Of a stretch of DNA of 9,056 bases, positions 1,444 through 9,056 are shown piece by piece. Every line of letters starts with the position of its first letter. The stretch's first letter is position 1. Both the position numbers and the translations under genes were made by a program. Origin of the DNA: CBDUXZ01 sp965371325 [NCBI: uncultured bacterium] (GTDB lineage Bacteria; JAUYMQ01); assembly GCA_965371325.1 (NCBI GenBank), contig CBDUXZ010000052.1:1-9056 (forward strand), in the 5' to 3' direction. Below the pieces are notes generated by a model that worked only from the letters and a program-made list of their open reading frames with translations, made no database searches and was not told where the DNA came from.

Positions 1444-1504
1444 AACCGAGAGACGGGCCCGGGGGGATGGATCTCGCCCCGAACGCTATGGTATCCTGAC
1501 TTCC

Positions 1505-2896
1505 ATGAAGGAAATTCCCGAACTCAAGAGTGACAAACAAATGGTGAAGGAATTACGCCAAACCAAGACTGCGTGTCCCGTCTGCGCCAAGGCGCTGGAC
1601 GGCTGGATTGAGCAGCGCGACAACGAAATCTACCTCTGTCGGGAGTGCCCGGAACACGGGCCGTGCGATTTTCTTCTGTCAACGAATGGCGACCTCTATG
1701 CGGACCTGGATCGGTTCTATTGCCGGTTGAAGGGCGAGAAGGCCCGGGGCCGGATCACGAATTATTGGGTCCTCTCCACCTCCCGCTGTCAGATGCAATG
1801 CAAGTTCTGCCAGGTTGAGGTGGAAAGCCCGACGTTTGAAGATATGTCACAAGACGATTTCGAGCAGATATTTTCTGACTACGGCGACGCCAAGCTGACT
1901 CTGTCCGGTGGTGAGCCAAGCCTGCATCCGCAGGTGATCAGCTTCTTCGAGGAAGCGAAGAAGCGTAACCTCACTACGCAGCTGGCAACCAACGGGGTGC
2001 GACTGGCGGACGAAGCATTCGTCCGCCAGCTGGCTGAGGCCGACGTCGGGGAAGTTCGCTTGTCAATCGAGTCCTTTGATCCCCAAGAGGCGACACTTGT
2101 GGGGACTGACCGCTTTGTGGAGCCGAAACTGAAAGCCCTGGACAACCTCGAAAAGCACGGGATCGCCGTCATCATCTCCCCGACGATTTTCAAGGGAACC
2201 AATGAACACCTCTTGATCGACGCCCTTGACTTCGCCAAAGGCAGGGTGGGGGTGAAAGAGGTCTCGGTGAACGGGTTTTCCTGGGTTGGGGAAGGCGTGG
2301 GCATGGATAAGGCGCAAATGATCATGCCCGACGAGATGATGGACATCCTTTTCCAGAAATATTTTGGTGATGACCGTGAAGAGATCTTCACGTTCCAGAA
2401 GCTGATGTTGACTATTCTACAAGTGCTCGGGATACGCTTGTGCTTTTACACTCAGCTCATGATTTTTGTCAAAGAAAAGAACGGCCTCCTTCCCATAACG
2501 AACTATTTCCACATGGGACGAATGAAGAGAGCCTTTCAGCGCTGGGAGCGGGTTATCGAAATGCCCGTCTTTGTCCAGGGGTTTGCGACGATGCTGGTCG
2601 TTATGAGCTCCCTGAAACTCTCTTCCCTCAAAGTCTTCCGTTCCTTGGGGTCCATGCTACTTGCAAATATTTTCAAGGTAAATATCAAGAAGTATCCCAC
2701 GAATATGATTCCCGTTGTCATGAATACCAATTGCTCCACACTGAGCCTCGATGAACGTGTCAGCCGACAGTGCATGAGCGGTTGCTTGTTGAAGCGTCAT
2801 GGCAGGATCAGCGAAGGGAAGAGCACAGACACACTCATGGACAAGGAGCAGAGCAGGGTGGCAGATCAATCTGGCGGATCCACACAAGCGCACTGA
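1505..2896 (+). CDS. Radical SAM enzyme with N-terminal rubredoxin-like cysteine knuckle (MJ0619/Tes-like)
   Basis: The 463-residue product is a radical SAM enzyme: CQMQCKFC (Cys95, Cys99, Cys102) binds the [4Fe-4S] cluster, with the SAM-contact motif GGEP at 135-138 and a TIM-barrel-like stretch to about 290. Before the barrel are Cys24-x2-Cys27 and Cys45-x2-Cys48 followed by PEHG, a four-cysteine site of the kind seen in the archaeal MJ0619 and tetraether lipid synthase (Tes) group. The C-terminal part has further cysteines (313, 410, 423, 427) that could hold auxiliary clusters. It probably makes or alkylates C-C bonds or inert carbons, perhaps on lipid chains, but the substrate is unproven. 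I start at ATG 1505. The open frame reaches 1190, but the extra 105 residues overlap the divergent gene and look non-coding. The start has no clear Shine-Dalgarno. GC falls noticeably in the last third. It converges on the ATC hydrolase-like gene, with only a weak hairpin (2914-2934, no T-run) between them. Confidence 0.85.
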   Translation: MKEIPELKSDKQMVKELRQTKTACPVCAKALDGWIEQRDNEIYLCRECPEHGPCDFLLSTNGDLYADLDRFYCRLKGEKARGRITNYWVLSTSRCQMQCKFCQVEVESPTFEDMSQDDFEQIFSDYGDAKLTLSGGEPSLHPQVISFFEEAKKRNLTTQLATNGVRLADEAFVRQLAEADVGEVRLSIESFDPQEATLVGTDRFVEPKLKALDNLEKHGIAVIISPTIFKGTNEHLLIDALDFAKGRVGVKEVSVNGFSWVGEGVGMDKAQMIMPDEMMDILFQKYFGDDREEIFTFQKLMLTILQVLGIRLCFYTQLMIFVKEKNGLLPITNYFHMGRMKRAFQRWERVIEMPVFVQGFATMLVVMSSLKLSSLKVFRSLGSMLLANIFKVNIKKYPTNMIPVVMNTNCSTLSLDERVSRQCMSGCLLKRHGRISEGKSTDTLMDKEQSRVADQSGGSTQAH

Positions 2897-2962: not shown

Positions 2963-3661
2963 TCACAAGCGCTTGAAGCGGTCGGGAACTAAGGTTTCGC
3001 GGCCGTGTTTGTACCGGAGCTTGCACGTCCGGCACCCCTGCCCGATGGTTTCGCTGGCATCCAGACCCATGCCCATGAGGCGACTGTAGACGACGTCGAA
3101 GAAATTGCAATACGGCTTCAGCTCCTGGGCCCCCTGCGCCTCATAGAACTTGTTGACCGCACACTCCGTAAACTCCAGGGTCATCTCGCCGTCTTCGCCT
3201 TCGCGAACGTTGTAGACGAAATCCCCGGCAAACGACCGCTCCCGTGACCGGGCCGCCTGCTTCTTCAGGGCCCTCTTCACAAACCCGCTGAAGGCGACCT
3301 TTCCCCCGAAGCGAAGAATGAAGTGCGGGAAAGTCCGGAAGAACCCGTCCGAGATTTCAAAGCAGACGTCGATGACTTCCTCGACCGTCTTTCCTCGGGC
3401 CTTCATCGCCCGGTAAAGGGCCACAACCCACCCGTTCACGACCATGACGGGGGTGAAATAGTTTTTTCGCCCACCGATGTAGGGGAGATCTGGGATGATC
3501 CGCTCGAACTCGGCCCGCGTTACCGCGATAGCCTCAACCGCGAACGCGTCGCCATAACGGGCGGTCAGGCTCTTCTTCAGGCGCTTCGAGAAACGATCGA
3601 AGACACGCAGGAGCCTGGGAGCCCTGTCGGTGTAGTAGGTTTCCGCCACCTGTACCCTCAT
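2963..3661 (-). CDS. L-2-amino-thiazoline-4-carboxylic acid (ATC) hydrolase family protein
   Basis: This 232-residue cytoplasmic protein fits the ATC hydrolase family, named for bacterial enzymes that open 2-amino-thiazoline-4-carboxylate on the way to L-cysteine; most genomic members have no tested substrate. The N-terminal half has the GGRKNYFTPV segment (63-72) and a helical Gly-x-Thr-x-Glu-Glu region (90-96). The C-terminal half has the family signature: ECAVNKFYEAQGAQEL (166-181), Tyr-Cys185 with Asp189, then GQGCRTCKLRY (208-217). Cys167, Cys185, Cys210 and Cys213 are the likely functional cysteines. The start at 3661 has GGGGAG upstream, and its leader contains a promoter-like box and a terminator-like hairpin. 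Family members often sit beside radical SAM genes, so the converging radical SAM gene may be a functional partner, though the two are not co-transcribed. Confidence is good for the family and low for the actual reaction. Confidence 0.75.
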   Translation of the reverse strand: MRVQVAETYYTDRAPRLLRVFDRFSKRLKKSLTARYGDAFAVEAIAVTRAEFERIIPDLPYIGGRKNYFTPVMVVNGWVVALYRAMKARGKTVEEVIDVCFEISDGFFRTFPHFILRFGGKVAFSGFVKRALKKQAARSRERSFAGDFVYNVREGEDGEMTLEFTECAVNKFYEAQGAQELKPYCNFFDVVYSRLMGMGLDASETIGQGCRTCKLRYKHGRETLVPDRFKRL

Positions 3662-3773: not shown

Positions 3774-3997
3774 CCAGTCTGTCTTAAATCGATCGCCGGA
3801 CGCCGCCCCGGATCTGCGGATCCAACCCCGCCTAGCTGAATCCCCCCAGCATTCCAATCAATTCTTGACTTTCCGGTCTCCCGGGGAAACCATCCCATGA
3901 CACGGTTCCGAATCAATCCGGACAGGCAGCTTCCGGTTGATCGGAGACCGGTTTCGAAGAAGCGTTGGATTAACAAATCATCATGTTGGGGGGAACA
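3774..3997. other. Structured spacer upstream of the small cysteine-rich gene
   Basis: No gene is visible here. The plus strand holds GGATC-TGCG-GATCC (3808-3821), a perfect small hairpin. CCGGTCTCC (3873-3881) pairs with GGAGACCGG (3943-3951) across 61 bases that contain a further CCGGA/TCCGG hairpin (3918-3936). A TTGACT at 3865-3870 could be a -35 for the downstream gene, but the -10 position (AACCAT) is poor. If transcribed, this would be a foldable leader. I cannot match it to a known riboswitch. Confidence 0.25.
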
Positions 3998-4420
3998 ATG
4001 AGCACATCCAGAACACCCTTGCGTTTTGCACCGCTCGCCATCCTGGGAGCGTTTCTCCTGATGCTGGCCGGGCCAGGAAACGCATCCGCAGAGTACGCGG
4101 AAGACGTCGACTGCCATACCGTTGAAGGTGTGGAAAAAGGAATCGCGGCGTGCTTCGAGAAACTGACCGATTGTCCCGAGGAGAACAAGGTTTCCTCGGA
4201 TTGCCGGAACATGAAGCAGTACTGCACGTGCATAAGAAAGAAGGGTGAGAAGAAAGACGAGGACGCCGCCGAGGAGAAGGCAAAAAAACAGGAAGAGAAG
4301 GCTGACAAGAAGGCCGAAAAGGAGAAGGAGAAGGCCATCAAAAAGGCCATTAAAGAGAAGGTCGAAAAGGGAGCGGACCAGGACGAATCGGCGCCCGAAG
4401 ATCTGATGCTGATCAAGTAG
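3998..4420 (+). CDS. Small exported cysteine-rich protein with Lys/Glu-rich coiled tail
   Basis: The 140-residue product starts with a Sec signal peptide (basic to Arg9, hydrophobic 10-24, cleavage after Ala-Ser-Ala at 29-31). The mature protein has a compact domain (about 32-80) with six cysteines (39, 52, 59, 69, 76, 78), an even number that suggests three disulfides in the periplasm. This is followed by a tail (81-130) made almost only of Lys, Glu, Ala and Asp, likely a charged single helix or coiled coil, and a short end (PEDLMLIK). There is no CXXCH, so it is not a cytochrome. I chose ATG 3998 because GGGGGG (3988-3993) precedes it. The in-frame ATG at 3983 has no ribosome-binding site and adds only five residues. 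It converges on the radical SAM gene of the cytochrome operon with a 42-base gap. I recognise no family. Confidence 0.7.
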   Translation: MSTSRTPLRFAPLAILGAFLLMLAGPGNASAEYAEDVDCHTVEGVEKGIAACFEKLTDCPEENKVSSDCRNMKQYCTCIRKKGEKKDEDAAEEKAKKQEEKADKKAEKEKEKAIKKAIKEKVEKGADQDESAPEDLMLIK

Positions 4421-4462: not shown

Positions 4463-5350
4463 TTACTTCGGGGACATGCCCCGCGGACCGGGGTACCCTC
4501 CCCCATCCAGCATGGCGGCGATGTGGAAAACGACCCACCCGCCGCAAAGGTCGCAGTCGACGTCGTTGCCGTAACAGCAGAAGGGCGAAACGAACTCGTT
4601 CCCTTCGAGGTAGAGCGGCAGCACGAGCCGCTTCGAGGGGCAGTTGTCCGTCACGGATCGGGCGTTCTCCGAAAGCGTCAGCTCGAGGCTTCTTTTCTTG
4701 TTCCAGACGAAGTCGGGATACTTCCGCTTCAACCGCATCACCGTCCGAACGGCTTTGTCGCGCCGCTCGATGGAGCCCCAGGTAAGATCGGAATTATCTT
4801 CTCTCGGAGGAGAGTAGAAGCTGAAAGTCATCCCCTCGATGCGTGTCGGGCGCAACAGCTCGACCAGTTCCTCAAGTCGATCCTCGTTGGTCCTGGTCAC
4901 GACCGACTGCGCCATAACCGTCGGCCCGAAAGGCTCCGGGATCCGCGACAGCGTCCTCATGATCTTGTCGTATGTCCCCTTCCCCCGGATTGAATCATTG
5001 AGATCCGGAGGCCCATCAATCGAGATGACGTAGAGGGAATTTGGAAGCTCGATCAGATCGAGCGTTCCGTTTGTCGTTACGTTGTTTCGCGGAAATATCT
5101 TCACGCCCTCACGGAGAACATCCGGCCTCAAGAGCGGTTCGCCGCCCATCCAGAGCATTACCTGGATGTCGTGTGCCTTTTGAAGCTCCGCCAGCTTCCC
5201 GAGCATCGTCGAGGCGTCCATCTTACTGGCAGGTTTGTTCGGATTCTCGTCCCGGAAGACGAAGCAGTGCTTGCAACGGAGGTTGCACTTGTTGGTGATG
5301 TTGACCATCGCCGCCGGATAACGGCGAGGGGCAGTATCGGTTCCGATCAT
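4463..5350 (-). CDS. Radical SAM protein with cysteine-rich C-terminus, in the HAO-like cytochrome operon
   Basis: The 295-residue product has the radical SAM motif CNLRCKHC (Cys22, Cys26, Cys29) close to the N-terminus, GGEP at 69-72, the TTNGT strand (92-96) and VISIDGP (108-114), so the SAM-binding half-barrel is intact. The C-terminal part has Cys237, Cys258, Cys259, Cys266 and Cys269 in a SPASM/twitch-like layout (CPSK ... FCCYGNDVDCDLCGGW) that could hold one auxiliary [4Fe-4S] cluster. Such proteins usually modify peptides or small metabolites by radical chemistry. ATG 5350 follows GGAGGG with a 4-base gap, a strong site. It is the third gene after the octaheme cytochrome and the membrane protein, with a 37-base gap and no terminator, so co-transcription is likely. 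A role in maturing that complex (a cofactor or protein cross-link) is inference only. It is not an obvious HpnH, PqqE or MoaA. Confidence 0.85.
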   Translation of the reverse strand: MIGTDTAPRRYPAAMVNITNKCNLRCKHCFVFRDENPNKPASKMDASTMLGKLAELQKAHDIQVMLWMGGEPLLRPDVLREGVKIFPRNNVTTNGTLDLIELPNSLYVISIDGPPDLNDSIRGKGTYDKIMRTLSRIPEPFGPTVMAQSVVTRTNEDRLEELVELLRPTRIEGMTFSFYSPPREDNSDLTWGSIERRDKAVRTVMRLKRKYPDFVWNKKRSLELTLSENARSVTDNCPSKRLVLPLYLEGNEFVSPFCCYGNDVDCDLCGGWVVFHIAAMLDGGGYPGPRGMSPK

Positions 5351-5387: not shown

Positions 5388-6245
5388 CTATCGGCCGGCA
5401 CGGTCGAGAGCTTGCGCCGGCGGTGATTTTCCGATCAGGTCGAACGTACCCAGCATCGCCAGAACGGCCAGATCCGCGAAGAGCAAGGGGGCGAATATCG
5501 GCGCGCCGAACAGGAAATTATCCCCCATGTTCCCCGAGGGCCCTTCCATGTTCGCTCCGAAGTGAAACAGAAAACCCGCAACGCCGACACCGGCCTGGAG
5601 AATCAGAACGGGAACGCAGAGCCTGAGAAAGGGACGGCTCCGGGGTCTGACCGTGGCAACGCACAAGAAACCGATCGCCAGGGCACTCGATAATACCGGG
5701 ATCCATTCACGGGTGTCGAAGAAACCGTTTTGCGCGTGATCGGCAAGCGAAAGCGCAAAGTTCCCGGCGAAGCCACCGAGGGCAAGAAAGATCACCCACT
5801 GCCCCCATTCGGTGGATTGCGAGCACATCATGCGGTTTAGCAGAAGGAGAAACCCCAGCCCTGCATAGGCGAGGGGCGCCACGAAGGGAGCCGTGTATAC
5901 AAGGCTTCGGATGGTCTGCTCCAGGAAGAAACGGCTCTCGAGATGAAGCACCATCCCTCCAATGCCGACACCGATAGAGGCGAACCCCGCAGCCATCCCG
6001 ATGATGCGCCCGGGAGGCCATCCGGGATCCCCCTTTCCCCGTACCAGGGCGTATCCGAGCAGCGGAGGGACGACCGCCGAGAACAGAACGGGGAGCCACT
6101 GCACGGTCAGTCCGAATTCGTTGATTGAATGTGCGAGTAAAACATCCAGGGCCAGAAAGGCGAGGTTGAAGATAACGAAGAGCTCGACGATCATCGGGCG
6201 GTTCCGCAGCAGGGCAATCACCGATTGCATATTTTCATCCCTCAT
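5388..6245 (-). CDS. Eight-helix membrane protein built of four His-bearing two-helix repeats
   Basis: This 285-residue integral membrane protein has about eight transmembrane segments. The open frame runs to 6383, but the ATG at 6245 overlaps the cytochrome stop as ATGA, so I start there and expect translational coupling. Internal repeats are clear. HSINEFGLTVQWLPVLFSA (39-57) matches HAQNGFFDTREWIPVLSSA (170-188), with His, Asn, Phe, Thr, Trp and Pro-Val-Leu in register. GVGIGGMVLH (92-101) matches GVGVAGFLFH (219-228), and TAPFVAPLAYAGL (118-130) matches GAPIFAPLLFADL (247-259). The protein is therefore a duplicated four-helix unit of about 127-131 residues, each with two related hairpins. 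His39, His101, His170 and His228 lie at the outer end of each first helix. The positive-inside rule (RGKGDP, NRMM, RPRSRP and the C-terminus inside) puts all four on the periplasmic face. It may anchor the cytochrome or exchange electrons or quinol with it. I do not recognise a family; NrfD-like is not evident. Confidence 0.82.
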   Translation of the reverse strand: MRDENMQSVIALLRNRPMIVELFVIFNLAFLALDVLLAHSINEFGLTVQWLPVLFSAVVPPLLGYALVRGKGDPGWPPGRIIGMAAGFASIGVGIGGMVLHLESRFFLEQTIRSLVYTAPFVAPLAYAGLGFLLLLNRMMCSQSTEWGQWVIFLALGGFAGNFALSLADHAQNGFFDTREWIPVLSSALAIGFLCVATVRPRSRPFLRLCVPVLILQAGVGVAGFLFHFGANMEGPSGNMGDNFLFGAPIFAPLLFADLAVLAMLGTFDLIGKSPPAQALDRAGR

Positions 6246-7468
6246 CGATGCCCACGGAGCCCCTTGGCTATTTCCTCCATCTCGACCTTCTTGGATAATA
6301 GTTCGTAGTTGCCGTGCCACTGCACAAAATCGGCGCCGCCCATGAATGCGCCGTGCTTGGCGGTGCGCCCGAAGTAGTGCCAATAGTCAAACGCAAGGAA
6401 TTCGATCGACTCGTCAAACGGCTCCGGTGTCAGGAGACCTTCCTCTCTTAACTCTTCGACGATCTTGAGAACCGACGCCACTTTATCGTTTGTCGCCGCT
6501 ACCACCTCTTCAGCTTTCCGATAGAACTCGTCAATATCGGTGCCCGAGTGGCACTTGAGGCACATCTCCTTCATCTCGGTTTGACCACGAGCGTAGGTGG
6601 GGCGCTTTTTTGAAATCGGAGCGAAGAGCCAGAAGGAAAGACGTTCCGTCACATCATGCGTCACCTTCATCCCTTCGAGACCGCTCATGTGGCATGTCGC
6701 GCACGTCGGTATCGGCATGTCCAGAGCCGTCAGTTCCTTGGGCGGCGCGTCGAGGTTCATCGTGGCGCTCTGGGCGTTGAAGAGAACGCCGTGTTTCGAC
6801 TCGTTGTAAATCTCAATCTGCGCATGGTCGGGTCCCATGTGACACTGGCCGCATGTCTGCGGATGGCGCGCGAGGGCGATCGATGCCGAGTGACGGGAAT
6901 GGCACTGGGTGCATGAACCGATCGAGCCGTCGGCGTTGGGCTTCCCGATGTTGTGACAGGCCAGGCAGCCCGTCTCCATCGCCCCAGGCTCCTCGAGCAG
7001 CACGAGCTTGTTGGGAGCCCGGTCGACGGCGCCCTGATGGAACTCCTCCGAGAAGCTGATCTGCTCGGATGTAAAGTCGTCTCTGCCTCGAACAGCCGCC
7101 CAGGCCGGCGCCCCGTGACGGCTCCGGACAAATTGTTCGTATTCCGTCGCGTGGCATTCCCGGCAGTTCAATGACGTCGCTTCGGTCGTGATGACGAAAT
7201 CGCGGTGCTCAAGCGCCTCCTGCCCCTCGAGAACCTTGTGACAATCAAGGCAGGTCACCCCCTCCTTGGCGTGCACACTTCGCTCGAATTGGTGCACAAG
7301 GGAGGCGGATTCGCGCAGATGGCATTGCGCGCACTTCCCCGTGGCTTTCACCAGGGCTGATGTCGGCTGCGCCGTTTCCGACTCCGGACGGCGCGCATTG
7401 AGAATGAGCGCCGCGACCACGAGTGCAGTCGCGATAAAAACCGCGATGAAGATCAAGCGAAACGACAT
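6242..7468 (-). CDS. Octaheme c-type cytochrome, hydroxylamine oxidoreductase (HAO)-like
   Basis: The 408-residue product has eight CXXCH heme sites, with first cysteines at 46, 73, 102, 168, 186, 206, 256 and 303. CHMGPDHAQIEIYNESKHG (209-227), CATCHMSG and THDVTERLSFW (270-280) are HAO-family hallmarks. The Asp214-His215 pair may correspond to the substrate-pocket Asp-His of characterised HAO. The family oxidises hydroxylamine or hydrazine or, in epsilon-proteobacterial types, probably reduces nitrogen oxides. Direction depends largely on whether a C-terminal Tyr cross-links the P460 heme. Candidates here are Tyr362, Tyr365 and Tyr388, near the GAFMGGADFVQWHG stretch (373-386), and I cannot decide without alignment. 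At 408 residues it is shorter than nitrifier HAO (roughly 550). Residues 4-24 form a hydrophobic segment with no clear cleavage site, so it is probably membrane-anchored facing the periplasm. ATG 7468 has GGGGGG five bases upstream. It is the first gene of a three-gene operon. Confidence 0.85.
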   Translation of the reverse strand: MSFRLIFIAVFIATALVVAALILNARRPESETAQPTSALVKATGKCAQCHLRESASLVHQFERSVHAKEGVTCLDCHKVLEGQEALEHRDFVITTEATSLNCRECHATEYEQFVRSRHGAPAWAAVRGRDDFTSEQISFSEEFHQGAVDRAPNKLVLLEEPGAMETGCLACHNIGKPNADGSIGSCTQCHSRHSASIALARHPQTCGQCHMGPDHAQIEIYNESKHGVLFNAQSATMNLDAPPKELTALDMPIPTCATCHMSGLEGMKVTHDVTERLSFWLFAPISKKRPTYARGQTEMKEMCLKCHSGTDIDEFYRKAEEVVAATNDKVASVLKIVEELREEGLLTPEPFDESIEFLAFDYWHYFGRTAKHGAFMGGADFVQWHGNYELLSKKVEMEEIAKGLRGHR

Positions 7469-7881: not shown

Positions 7882-9056
7882 ATGCGTAACTTTTCAATTG
7901 CCCTCAGGCGCACCATCCTGATTCTGGGCTGGCTGCCGCTGCTCCTCGTGCCTCCCACCGCGGGCGCGATAGACGGGGAGGTCCGGATTGAGATCGATGA
8001 TGCCGTGGCCCAGGGGGCGGACACCTGGCCGGTGACCACCGGTGTTCCCTTCCCCAGGGGCGCGCTTGCCTCGGCGGATCAGATCCGGCTGGTCGACGGA
8101 ACGGGTGCCGAGATTCCGATTCAGAAGGAAGTCACGGCGACCTGGGATCCCGCCGGCGCGGAAGTGAAGTGGCTTCTCCTGGATTTTCAGGCGAGCGCTC
8201 TCGAAACCTATCGGTTGCAGTACGGGGCGGACGTTTCTCCTTCGCCGGTTGAGGGTATTCTGACGAGCGAGGATGCTGCATCCATCTTCCTCGACGCGGG
8301 CGAGCTCCTGCTCGTGATTCCCAAGCAGCCCCAAGGGTCGCTCTTCACCCTCTTCCGCGACGAGAATACCGACGGCGTGCATGATCCGTCTGAAGAGTTT
8401 GCGGTTCTCCGGGATTCCACCATCGAGGACAATCTCGGAATTCGCTACGCGGCTTCCGCGGATGCGACCGACTACACCGCAGCAGTGGAGGTTATCGGTC
8501 CGCTCCGGACGACGATCCGTCTTGGCGGTTGGTATGTCGCGGCCGACGGGACGAGATTTTGCAAGCACATCACCCGCATCGAGACGTTTTTCGACAAGCC
8601 CTACATCCGCGTCTATCACACGTTCATATTCACGGGCGACACGGACGATATGATCACCGACATCAGTCTCGTCATGGAGCGTACCGGTTCGGGTGAGGAA
8701 GCGGTCGGCGTTTTTCCGCGCGGATACGATGCCCAGGGATCGACCGAACAGGTTCTTCTGAATCACAAGCAATCGGGCCTGCTGATACAGGAGAAATACC
8801 GGCACGCCGGGCAGCCGGATACCGCGCCTCACAATGCGTTTGGAATCTATCTGGCCAAAGGGGGTAAGCCGAAGAAACTCTTCCCTCGAAAACAATCTTC
8901 CCTGGGAAAATCGCCCGGCTGGACGACGCACCTGAACGACACGGGCGGGGCGACTGTCGGAGTCAGGCATTTCTGGCAGACCTTCCCAAAAGAGATCGAA
9001 GCAACGCGCGATGGAATCACGGTGCACCTCTGGTCGTCCCGACTGGGCCAGTTATT
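7882..9056 (+). CDS. Exported PcRGLX/YetA-like (exo-rhamnogalacturonan lyase family) protein, 3' end missing
   Basis: The frame is open from ATG 7882 to the window edge (391 codons plus two bases), so only the N-terminal part is present. A Sec signal peptide is clear: basic RNFSIALRR, hydrophobic 11-25 and a cleavage motif TAGA at 26-29. The mature start resembles the N-terminal RIFT-barrel domain of PcRGLX/YetA-like proteins: VTTGVPFPRGAL (51-62), ADQIRLVD (65-72), then VKWLLLDF. Around residues 230-260 comes a second domain with RIETFFDKPYIRVYHTFIFTGD, a motif typical of the following domain of that family. Relatives act on pectin-type rhamnogalacturonan from the non-reducing end, outside the cytoplasm. 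Substrate and activity cannot be judged without the C-terminus. No strong Shine-Dalgarno is visible. The gene is divergent from the cytochrome operon and probably unrelated to it. Confidence 0.78.
   Translation, partial: MRNFSIALRRTILILGWLPLLLVPPTAGAIDGEVRIEIDDAVAQGADTWPVTTGVPFPRGALASADQIRLVDGTGAEIPIQKEVTATWDPAGAEVKWLLLDFQASALETYRLQYGADVSPSPVEGILTSEDAASIFLDAGELLLVIPKQPQGSLFTLFRDENTDGVHDPSEEFAVLRDSTIEDNLGIRYAASADATDYTAAVEVIGPLRTTIRLGGWYVAADGTRFCKHITRIETFFDKPYIRVYHTFIFTGDTDDMITDISLVMERTGSGEEAVGVFPRGYDAQGSTEQVLLNHKQSGLLIQEKYRHAGQPDTAPHNAFGIYLAKGGKPKKLFPRKQSSLGKSPGWTTHLNDTGGATVGVRHFWQTFPKEIEATRDGITVHLWSSRLGQL

Follow-up and report, generated by a model that had tools for sequence, protein, structure and literature searches.

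The window, the whole 9,056-nucleotide stretch that we analysed, carries on its minus strand a gene for an octaheme cytochrome c (P0002) followed by a gene for an eight-helix membrane protein (P0001). The start codon of the second gene overlaps the stop codon of the first. An original prediction had given the coordinates of the membrane protein gene, this overlap, histidines at residues 39, 101, 170 and 228 and two motifs shared between the halves of the protein, and all of these proved correct. The features, numbered from the first letter of the window, are as follows.

5388..6245, minus strand: P0001, eight-helix membrane protein of 285 amino acids plus stop, a tandem duplication of a four-helix, two-histidine unit
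5817..6206, minus strand: first four-helix half of P0001, residues 14-143, homologous to the second half
5421..5816, minus strand: second four-helix half of P0001, residues 144-275, homologous to the first half
6129..6131, minus strand: codon of His39, predicted periplasmic end of helix 1, invariant in 79 of 79 family members and in a distant 11-member alignment
5943..5945, minus strand: codon of His101, predicted periplasmic end of helix 3, in GxxGxxxH, conserved in the family and the distant alignment
5736..5738, minus strand: codon of His170, predicted periplasmic end of helix 5, conserved in the family and the distant alignment
5562..5564, minus strand: codon of His228, predicted periplasmic part of helix 7, in GxxxH, conserved in the family and the distant alignment
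6242..7468, minus strand: P0002, octaheme cytochrome c with the HAO fold (PF13447, PDB profile and model), 408 amino acids, eight CXXCH motifs and a hydrophobic N-terminal helix
7394..7462, minus strand: predicted N-terminal helix of P0002, residues 3-25, a possible membrane anchor (model and sequence hydrophobicity)
6242..6245, minus strand: ATGA, overlap of the P0002 stop TGA with the P0001 start ATG, suggesting translational coupling

P0002 matches Pfam PF13447 with an E value of 5.7e-28 (98.4 bits against a cut-off of 21.9). Like P0002, 77 of the 78 paired relatives carry eight CXXCH motifs; the exception (L072), which is cut by the end of its contig, has seven. Among PDB profile matches the best was 4qo5 (E 8.6e-64), which we take to be IhOCC, and chains of HAO (1e-41) and HDH (1.2e-29) also matched. 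The structural model (pLDDT 87.1) is likewise closest to 4qo5 (Z 29.0, rmsd 2.4, 351 residues aligned, 32% identity), with Z scores of 22.4-24.2 for HAO and HDH entries and of 23.1-23.6 for those of N. europaea HAO. By model and profile, P0002 shares the HAO fold with IhOCC and the other HAO-fold octahemes; it differs from the 4qo5 chain in being 113 residues shorter and in having an N-terminal helix and a new membrane partner. P0002 is probably periplasmic and tethered to the membrane through helix 3-25, a putative anchor.

A radical SAM gene (4463-5350, minus strand) starts 37 nt 3′ of the P0001 gene on the same strand. As it has no match among loci L001-L082, it probably lies outside the module, and we dropped it as a candidate third gene of the operon. 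No inverted repeats were found 5′ of the cytochrome gene. Further along, an open reading frame at 3983-4420 (plus strand) encodes a small protein with a signal-like start, a Cys-containing front and a Lys/Glu/Ala-rich tail. An ATC_hydrolase-family gene (2963-3661, minus strand) faces another radical SAM gene (1502-2896, plus strand), which has an HMPTM zinc ribbon and is related to TrsS/tetraether synthase profiles. The divergent neighbour on the other side (7882-9056, plus strand) encodes a PcRGLX-like protein and is cut off by the end of the window.

A duplicated unit with two invariant histidines

From sequence comparison, P0001 is correctly described as one four-helix, two-histidine unit, duplicated. 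Aligning half 1 with half 2 by hhalign gave 98.2% (pairwise E 2.6e-13), bearing out the homology that had been proposed for the two four-helix halves, and BLASTP of half against half gave a pairwise E of 6e-9 without composition correction, with the histidines aligned. The motif H-x-x-N-x-F-x-x-T-x-x-W-x-P-V-L starts at His39 and again at His170, and A-P-x-x-A-P-L starts at Ala119 and at Ala248. When hairpins were aligned separately, 1 matched 3 (96.5%) and 2 matched 4 (94.9%); the combinations 1-2, 1-4, 2-3 and 3-4 each scored below 2%. The suggestion that the protein consists of four two-helix modules therefore needs correcting in detail: hairpins 1 and 3 are homologous, as are 2 and 4, but hairpins 1 and 2 are not. 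Similarly, each odd-numbered helix does carry one histidine at its predicted periplasmic end, but what had been called four equivalent histidines should be two pairs.

An AlphaFold2 model of P0001 alone, made with 79 family sequences (mean pLDDT 92.8, pTM 0.89), contains eight long helices (residues 16-40, 47-69, 77-103, 119-139, 145-172, 178-199, 204-233 and 254-273), besides short ones, and places the histidines at or near the C-terminal ends of helices 1, 3, 5 and 7. Counts of lysine plus arginine that include five flanking residues are higher on the N-terminal (even-loop) side in all 79 members, with means of 11.3 and 3.8. With three flanking residues this side is higher in 78 members and equal in one; with no flanking residues it is higher in 67 and equal in seven. 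Because of this excess, the N terminus is predicted to be inside and all four histidines periplasmic. Model and charge counts agree in placing the histidines on one face rather than on different faces.

His39, His101, His170 and His228 are identical in 79 of 79 family sequences and so do not vary freely. The longer of the two motifs is only partly a family trait: the His, Asn42, Phe44 and Pro52 are kept, but Thr47 is not (Pro is the commonest residue there, in 30 of 79 members) and position 50 is variable (Trp in 48, Tyr in 28). Asp34 and Asp169 are also invariant in all 79. We then aligned 11 sequences with 20-33% identity to P0001, comprising four linked to octaheme genes (P0001 included), five linked to GMC oxidoreductase genes and two others. 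The invariant residues of this alignment (H39, P52, G97, H101, P120, A123, P124, L125, H170, G224, H228, P249, A252, P253 and L255) form nearly the same core twice, once per half. As the two aspartates are neither equivalent between the halves nor kept in this distant alignment, only the histidines recur as candidate ligands.

In relatives that have the four-helix unit once, both histidines are present in 23 of 23, together with the same Pro and GxxGxxxH. Since this smallest unit has two histidines at one membrane level, we prefer a bis-His site per unit to a four-His centre. Two histidines on helices 1 and 3 of a four-helix unit, at one level in the membrane, are a usual layout of bis-His heme b, and the two invariant histidines per unit in P0001 are consistent with such a site.

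Pairing with the octaheme cytochrome

Single-sequence scans of viral, genome and plasmid contigs with P0001, which reach close relatives only, returned no relative, and we therefore used the cytochrome to reach its neighbourhood. (A scan of viral contigs with P0002, of equally short reach, also returned none.) Searching genome contigs with a cytochrome alignment yielded at least 553 confirmed relatives, of which the best 80 (53-68% identity) were kept. In 78 of these best 80 loci the cytochrome gene is immediately followed, on the same strand, by a gene for a P0001 homologue; in the remaining two (L049 and L051) the contig ends at the partner's place. The distance from the cytochrome stop to the membrane protein start, with start codons that we chose, ranges from -68 to +102 nt. 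About 12 phylum labels are represented, including Planctomycetota, Poribacteria, Acidobacteriota, Gemmatimonadota, Neomarinimicrobiota, Zixibacteria, KSB1, Bacteroidota, Myxococcota, Eisenbacteria and Verrucomicrobiota, with one Leptospiraceae contig that ends before the partner position. As most loci come from metagenome bins, individual labels could be mistaken.

A search from the opposite side, with the membrane profile, hit 13 of 343 genomes of Planctomycetota and 26 of 347 of Acidobacteriota (690 together). All 22 hits with E <1e-30 in these genomes adjoin an octaheme gene, and 12 of the 22 lie outside the first 80 loci. The other 17 genomes contain weaker or partial matches without the cytochrome, which represent distant relatives, fragments or, probably, chance. 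Among 188 Myxococcota genomes two were hit, one of them the centre, and both contain the pair.

The cytochrome profile matched in 85 of 246 Planctomycetota genomes and separated them into clear tiers, with 10 places at 633-708 bits and the rest at 420 bits or less. The membrane gene accompanies all 10 cytochromes of the top tier and none of the 20 second-tier octaheme loci that we examined (L205-L224). In one second-tier genome (G211), a contig begins with a fragment of the membrane protein, and assembly may have split a pair there. The second-tier loci hold a second, longer class of octaheme HAO-like cytochrome in Planctomycetota.

Distances within the P0001 and P0002 families covary (Mantel r 0.676, reached in 0 of 2000 permutations; 78 pairs, the truncated L072 excluded), a correlation that is partly due to shared descent. 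We consider it likely that the two proteins form a physical complex. Strict one-to-one pairing would also suit a chaperone, and P0001 could serve solely to assemble, mature or anchor the cytochrome instead of carrying electrons. This seems quite improbable to us, as the cytochrome appears to carry a membrane helix of its own at the N terminus, the 20 second-tier loci do without the protein and members of its superfamily adjoin flavoprotein genes (see below). One host of the pair, Paludisphaera soli JC670 (L048), is a named strain, so that a test need not wait for cultivation.

Family searches and the wider superfamily

P0001 had no meaningful match in Pfam, NCBIfam or PDB sequences. When the 79 family members were compared with Pfam one by one, we obtained scattered weak matches (best 0.0039), none of them to NrfD or to heme-b families, among the matches listed (25 of 33 families); nine distant relatives had no match over a curated cut-off. 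P0001 itself had no Pfam match to NrfD or to the di-heme cytochrome b, b561, FdnI, HyaC or NarI families. In hhalign comparisons with E. coli NrfD, HybB, FdnI, HyaC, NarI and CybB nothing was found (0.7% for NrfD, at most 0.3% for the di-heme group), with single-sequence targets only; such targets are insensitive, and an NrfD-HybB control also failed (0.5%). By these weak tests, no sequence match to heme-b or quinone-binding families was obtained. P0001 is also distinct from the NapC/NirT/NrfH quinol dehydrogenases, since it contains no CXXCH motif and has no match to PF03264 (NapC/NirT) at E values up to 1.

Foldseek found no significant match to the P0001 model in the PDB (best E 0.12). The top match in VIA-align was a soluble metalloprotein, 3d19 (Z 16.4, rmsd 3.5, 232 residues aligned), followed by 3dby (Z 15.8, 230 aligned). 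The next row had Z 10.6, and the rows after the first two were bacteriorhodopsins and other bundles. No NrfD or cytochrome b structures were among the matches listed, which is not evidence against either. A non-heme metal (iron, copper or zinc) held by the two histidines of each half, with a role in redox chemistry, NO handling or structure, would fit the modelled likeness to 3d19 at least as well as heme b would, and we count this match against the heme reading. Some loci also have NO-linked gene neighbours. However, by the note that accompanies VIA-align, largely helical models can score up to about Z 14 without clear relatives, the likeness to 3d19 and 3dby is at most a common duplicated-bundle arrangement and no residues other than the histidines recur as ligands, so that we regard a non-heme metal as improbable.

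The main rival reading is a subunit of the NrfD type. NrfD partners usually connect through an iron-sulfur subunit. According to excerpts of PMC8076601, NrfD/PsrC-like proteins consist of eight helices in two four-helix repeats, with the periplasmic side proposed to be active, a P-side quinone site and no cofactor. As the gross architecture of P0001 is the same, it could be a divergent or convergent subunit of this type, with quinol bound on the periplasmic side, no redox cofactor of its own and histidines that would bind quinol and release protons. We think this unlikely. There is no NrfD match for P0001 or, among the matches listed, for its relatives, although the hhalign score carries little weight because the control failed; no iron-sulfur subunit gene is found among the recurrent neighbours; and the Q site of NrfD is in the first bundle (excerpts of PMC8076601), whereas both halves of P0001 keep the same invariant histidine pair.

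Among octaheme systems, the HaoC/HaoA type, in which a NapC/NirT protein serves a reductive octaheme enzyme, resembles our pair in combining an octaheme HAO-like enzyme with an adjacent membrane gene. For the plasmid cytochrome relatives from Desulfosarcina and Desulfobaculum (35% and 32% identity), the gene immediately upstream encodes a NapC/NirT protein. In contrast, the partner described here is CXXCH-free, has eight helices and is encoded downstream by an overlapping gene, and P0002, at 408 amino acids, is shorter than the Desulfosarcina and Desulfobaculum cytochromes (466 and 471). HaoB of ammonia oxidisers, which we compared by description only, resembles P0001 in its gene position beside an octaheme; excerpts of PMC3772326 describe it as a protein of unknown role that is encoded beside HaoA and co-expressed with it. 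We searched the open-licence literature, including excerpts of PMC12758564, PMC4429474, PMC5317091, PMC8940962, PMC3772326, PMC8076601, PMC10732223 and PMC8528874, and within that material neither the pair nor the membrane family is described, in keeping with the earlier remark that no complex of this form was known. Systems in which a periplasmic multiheme enzyme works with a membrane electron partner are known; as far as these searches reach, this partner family is undescribed.

Distant relatives place the family in a broader setting. At five of six Acidobacteriota loci, a distant eight-helix member is followed by a Gluconate_2-dh3 gene (PF13618) and then by a GMC oxidoreductase gene (PF00732/PF05199), as assigned by Pfam on L134 and by similarity on the others. 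At the sixth locus (L112) the membrane copy is truncated, and the short stretch examined contains neither gene. At the five loci (L131-L134 and L115), the eight-helix relative directly precedes the two subunit genes and so occupies the usual third-subunit place of gluconate-dehydrogenase-like GMC complexes. The third subunit of the classical gluconate 2-dehydrogenase complex is instead an electron-carrying cytochrome c. Since the superfamily adjoins genes whose classical third subunit carries electrons, this arrangement supports a role for P0001 in electron transfer. Two further distant eight-helix members (L129 and L130) lie beside an Rce1-like gene (Pfam on L130) and RND-efflux-like genes (assigned by eye).

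The unit also occurs singly, with the core present once, in 134-147-residue stretches at 23 Acidobacteriota loci (L170-L188, L135-L137 and L139). The profile link A2-A4 of this single-unit family scored 96.7% (E 4.3e-10), and the profile matched in 28 of 199 genomes, some of them through octaheme-linked eight-helix members. At 20 of the 23 loci the gene is followed by one for a helix-hairpin-helix-type protein (from a neighbour cluster, with Pfam on one member), a gene pair that is conserved in Acidobacteriota. We did not use this neighbour in support of electron transfer, as it is not an obvious redox enzyme and counts against that role. Redox neighbours of single-unit genes are a PQQ dehydrogenase at one locus and an amine-oxidase-like flavoprotein at another. 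The proposed link to the cytochrome thus holds for all close relatives that could be observed, but the wider superfamily is not confined to cytochromes. A short remnant at L138 (5967-8380) matches the C-terminal part of the membrane family (71-aa frame, L107); it adjoins a RIC repair gene and a gene for a 442-aa-type protein, and no octaheme frame was seen in 15 kb.

Nitrogen context and the proposed electron path

In excerpts of PMC12758564, reductive members of the cytochrome family have a histidine at a key site and oxidative members a crosslinking tyrosine. None of 78 sequences of the P0002 family has tyrosine at positions 382-386, and His385 is invariant, although the register with HAO Tyr467 is placed only approximately. 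Because the HAO-type tyrosine is missing from these positions and the histidine is invariant, P0002 is probably reductive, subject to that approximate register. Tyr365 and Tyr388 are invariant, and position 381 is tyrosine in 4 of 78, which weakens the argument. The cytochrome might instead oxidise hydroxylamine or a similar compound and P0001 reduce quinone, along the same electron path in the opposite direction, and the GMC-linked relatives presumably run oxidatively. Given the tyrosine pattern, we hold an oxidative module to be rather improbable.

A gene for NO reductase is located no more than about 4 kb from the cytochrome start in 7 of the 80 loci (L060, L062, L064, L069, L071, L074 and L076), which are labelled Acidobacteriota and Verrucomicrobiota. 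The enzyme has a fused cytochrome-like domain (PF22085 plus COX1, tested on L064). Six of the seven loci have a Crp/Fnr-type regulator in the flank, and four encode there a RIC (YtfE-type) repair protein together with a family-less 442-aa protein. The other 73 loci, many on short contigs, have no such NO reductase in the stretch examined. The 442-aa protein (L060, 12208-13533) has no match in Pfam or NCBIfam; homologues are found at L062, L064, L074 and L138, near NO-related genes.

We searched 14 genomes that contain the pair. As seven of them were picked for an NO reductase beside the pair, the counts are not prevalences, and as genome completeness is not stated, absences are soft. NO reductase is present in nine, i.e., in two of the seven not chosen for it, and NirK exceeds its cut-off in two. 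The NrfA profile (PF02335) exceeds its 24.1-bit cut-off in five, with each match covering fewer than 80 of 438 positions and three falling within the octaheme gene itself. The NirS profile (PF02239) exceeds its 25.5-bit cut-off in 10, through partial matches of about 25-41 bits, and also matches weakly in two control genomes. Since the matches are short or weak, we judged that none represents a real NrfA or NirS. The NapC/NirT family has no match in six of the 14 and exceeds its cut-off in eight, where only one match lies in a NapC-sized frame (203 aa). These counts fit the proposal that P0001 takes the place of a NapC/NrfH-type (HaoC) partner and leave it unproven. Excerpts of PMC10732223 report hao, often with norB and without nirK or nirS, in bins of Planctomycetota and KSB1. 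One of our loci, L014 (OFTM112), bears the isolate prefix of the study excerpted there.

Our preferred reading, to which we give about an even chance, is that P0001 is an undescribed membrane electron-transfer subunit that links quinone to a probably reductive octaheme cytochrome, with one bis-His site per half. The two genes would encode a two-part respiratory module. The cytochrome would be a periplasmic HAO-fold enzyme that probably reduces nitrite, NO or hydroxylamine. Its eight-helix partner would take electrons from quinol, or return them to quinone, at the periplasmic face and feed them into the octaheme chain by way of two cofactors with His ligands, most likely hemes b. His39 with His101 and His170 with His228 would form the two sites, and the two hemes would sit just under the cytochrome. 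P0001 would thereby fill the role that in other systems belongs to NapC/NrfH-type (HaoC) or NrfD-type subunits. The parts of this reading differ in strength: quinone-linked electron transfer is somewhat favoured, reduction of nitrogen oxides by P0002 is evenly balanced and heme b as the ligand of the histidine pairs falls slightly short of even. Besides the metalloprotein match, we count against the reading the Rce1-like and RND-like neighbours, the 73 of 80 loci that lack an NO reductase, the NapC matches in 8 of 14 genomes and the NrfA and NirS profiles that pass low cut-offs in 5 and 10 of them.

Excerpts of PMC8940962 rank HAO-like genes with the most abundant nitrogen genes of a microbial-mat metagenome and report that the mat hao genes are annotated as hydroxylamine dehydrogenase yet lack the tyrosine. 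The route by which HAO-like enzymes are tied into respiration is often unclear. Through its constant partner gene, one clade stands out as a module of its own for which an electron source can be predicted, and the pair of invariant histidines in each four-helix unit provides a testable sequence tag. On a tentative and broader view, which we hold to be somewhat less probable than not, the family would belong to an undescribed quinone-facing membrane redox superfamily, with its four-helix, two-His unit single or duplicated, that offers, alongside NapC/NrfH and NrfD, a third general way of connecting periplasmic enzymes to the quinone pool. Under the labels Acidobacteriota, Planctomycetota, Poribacteria and about eight further phyla, it would drive an octaheme reductase of nitrite, NO or hydroxylamine able to stand in for NirK, NirS or NrfA. 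If the module works as proposed, some bacteria that seem unable to reduce nitrite by their gene content may do so.
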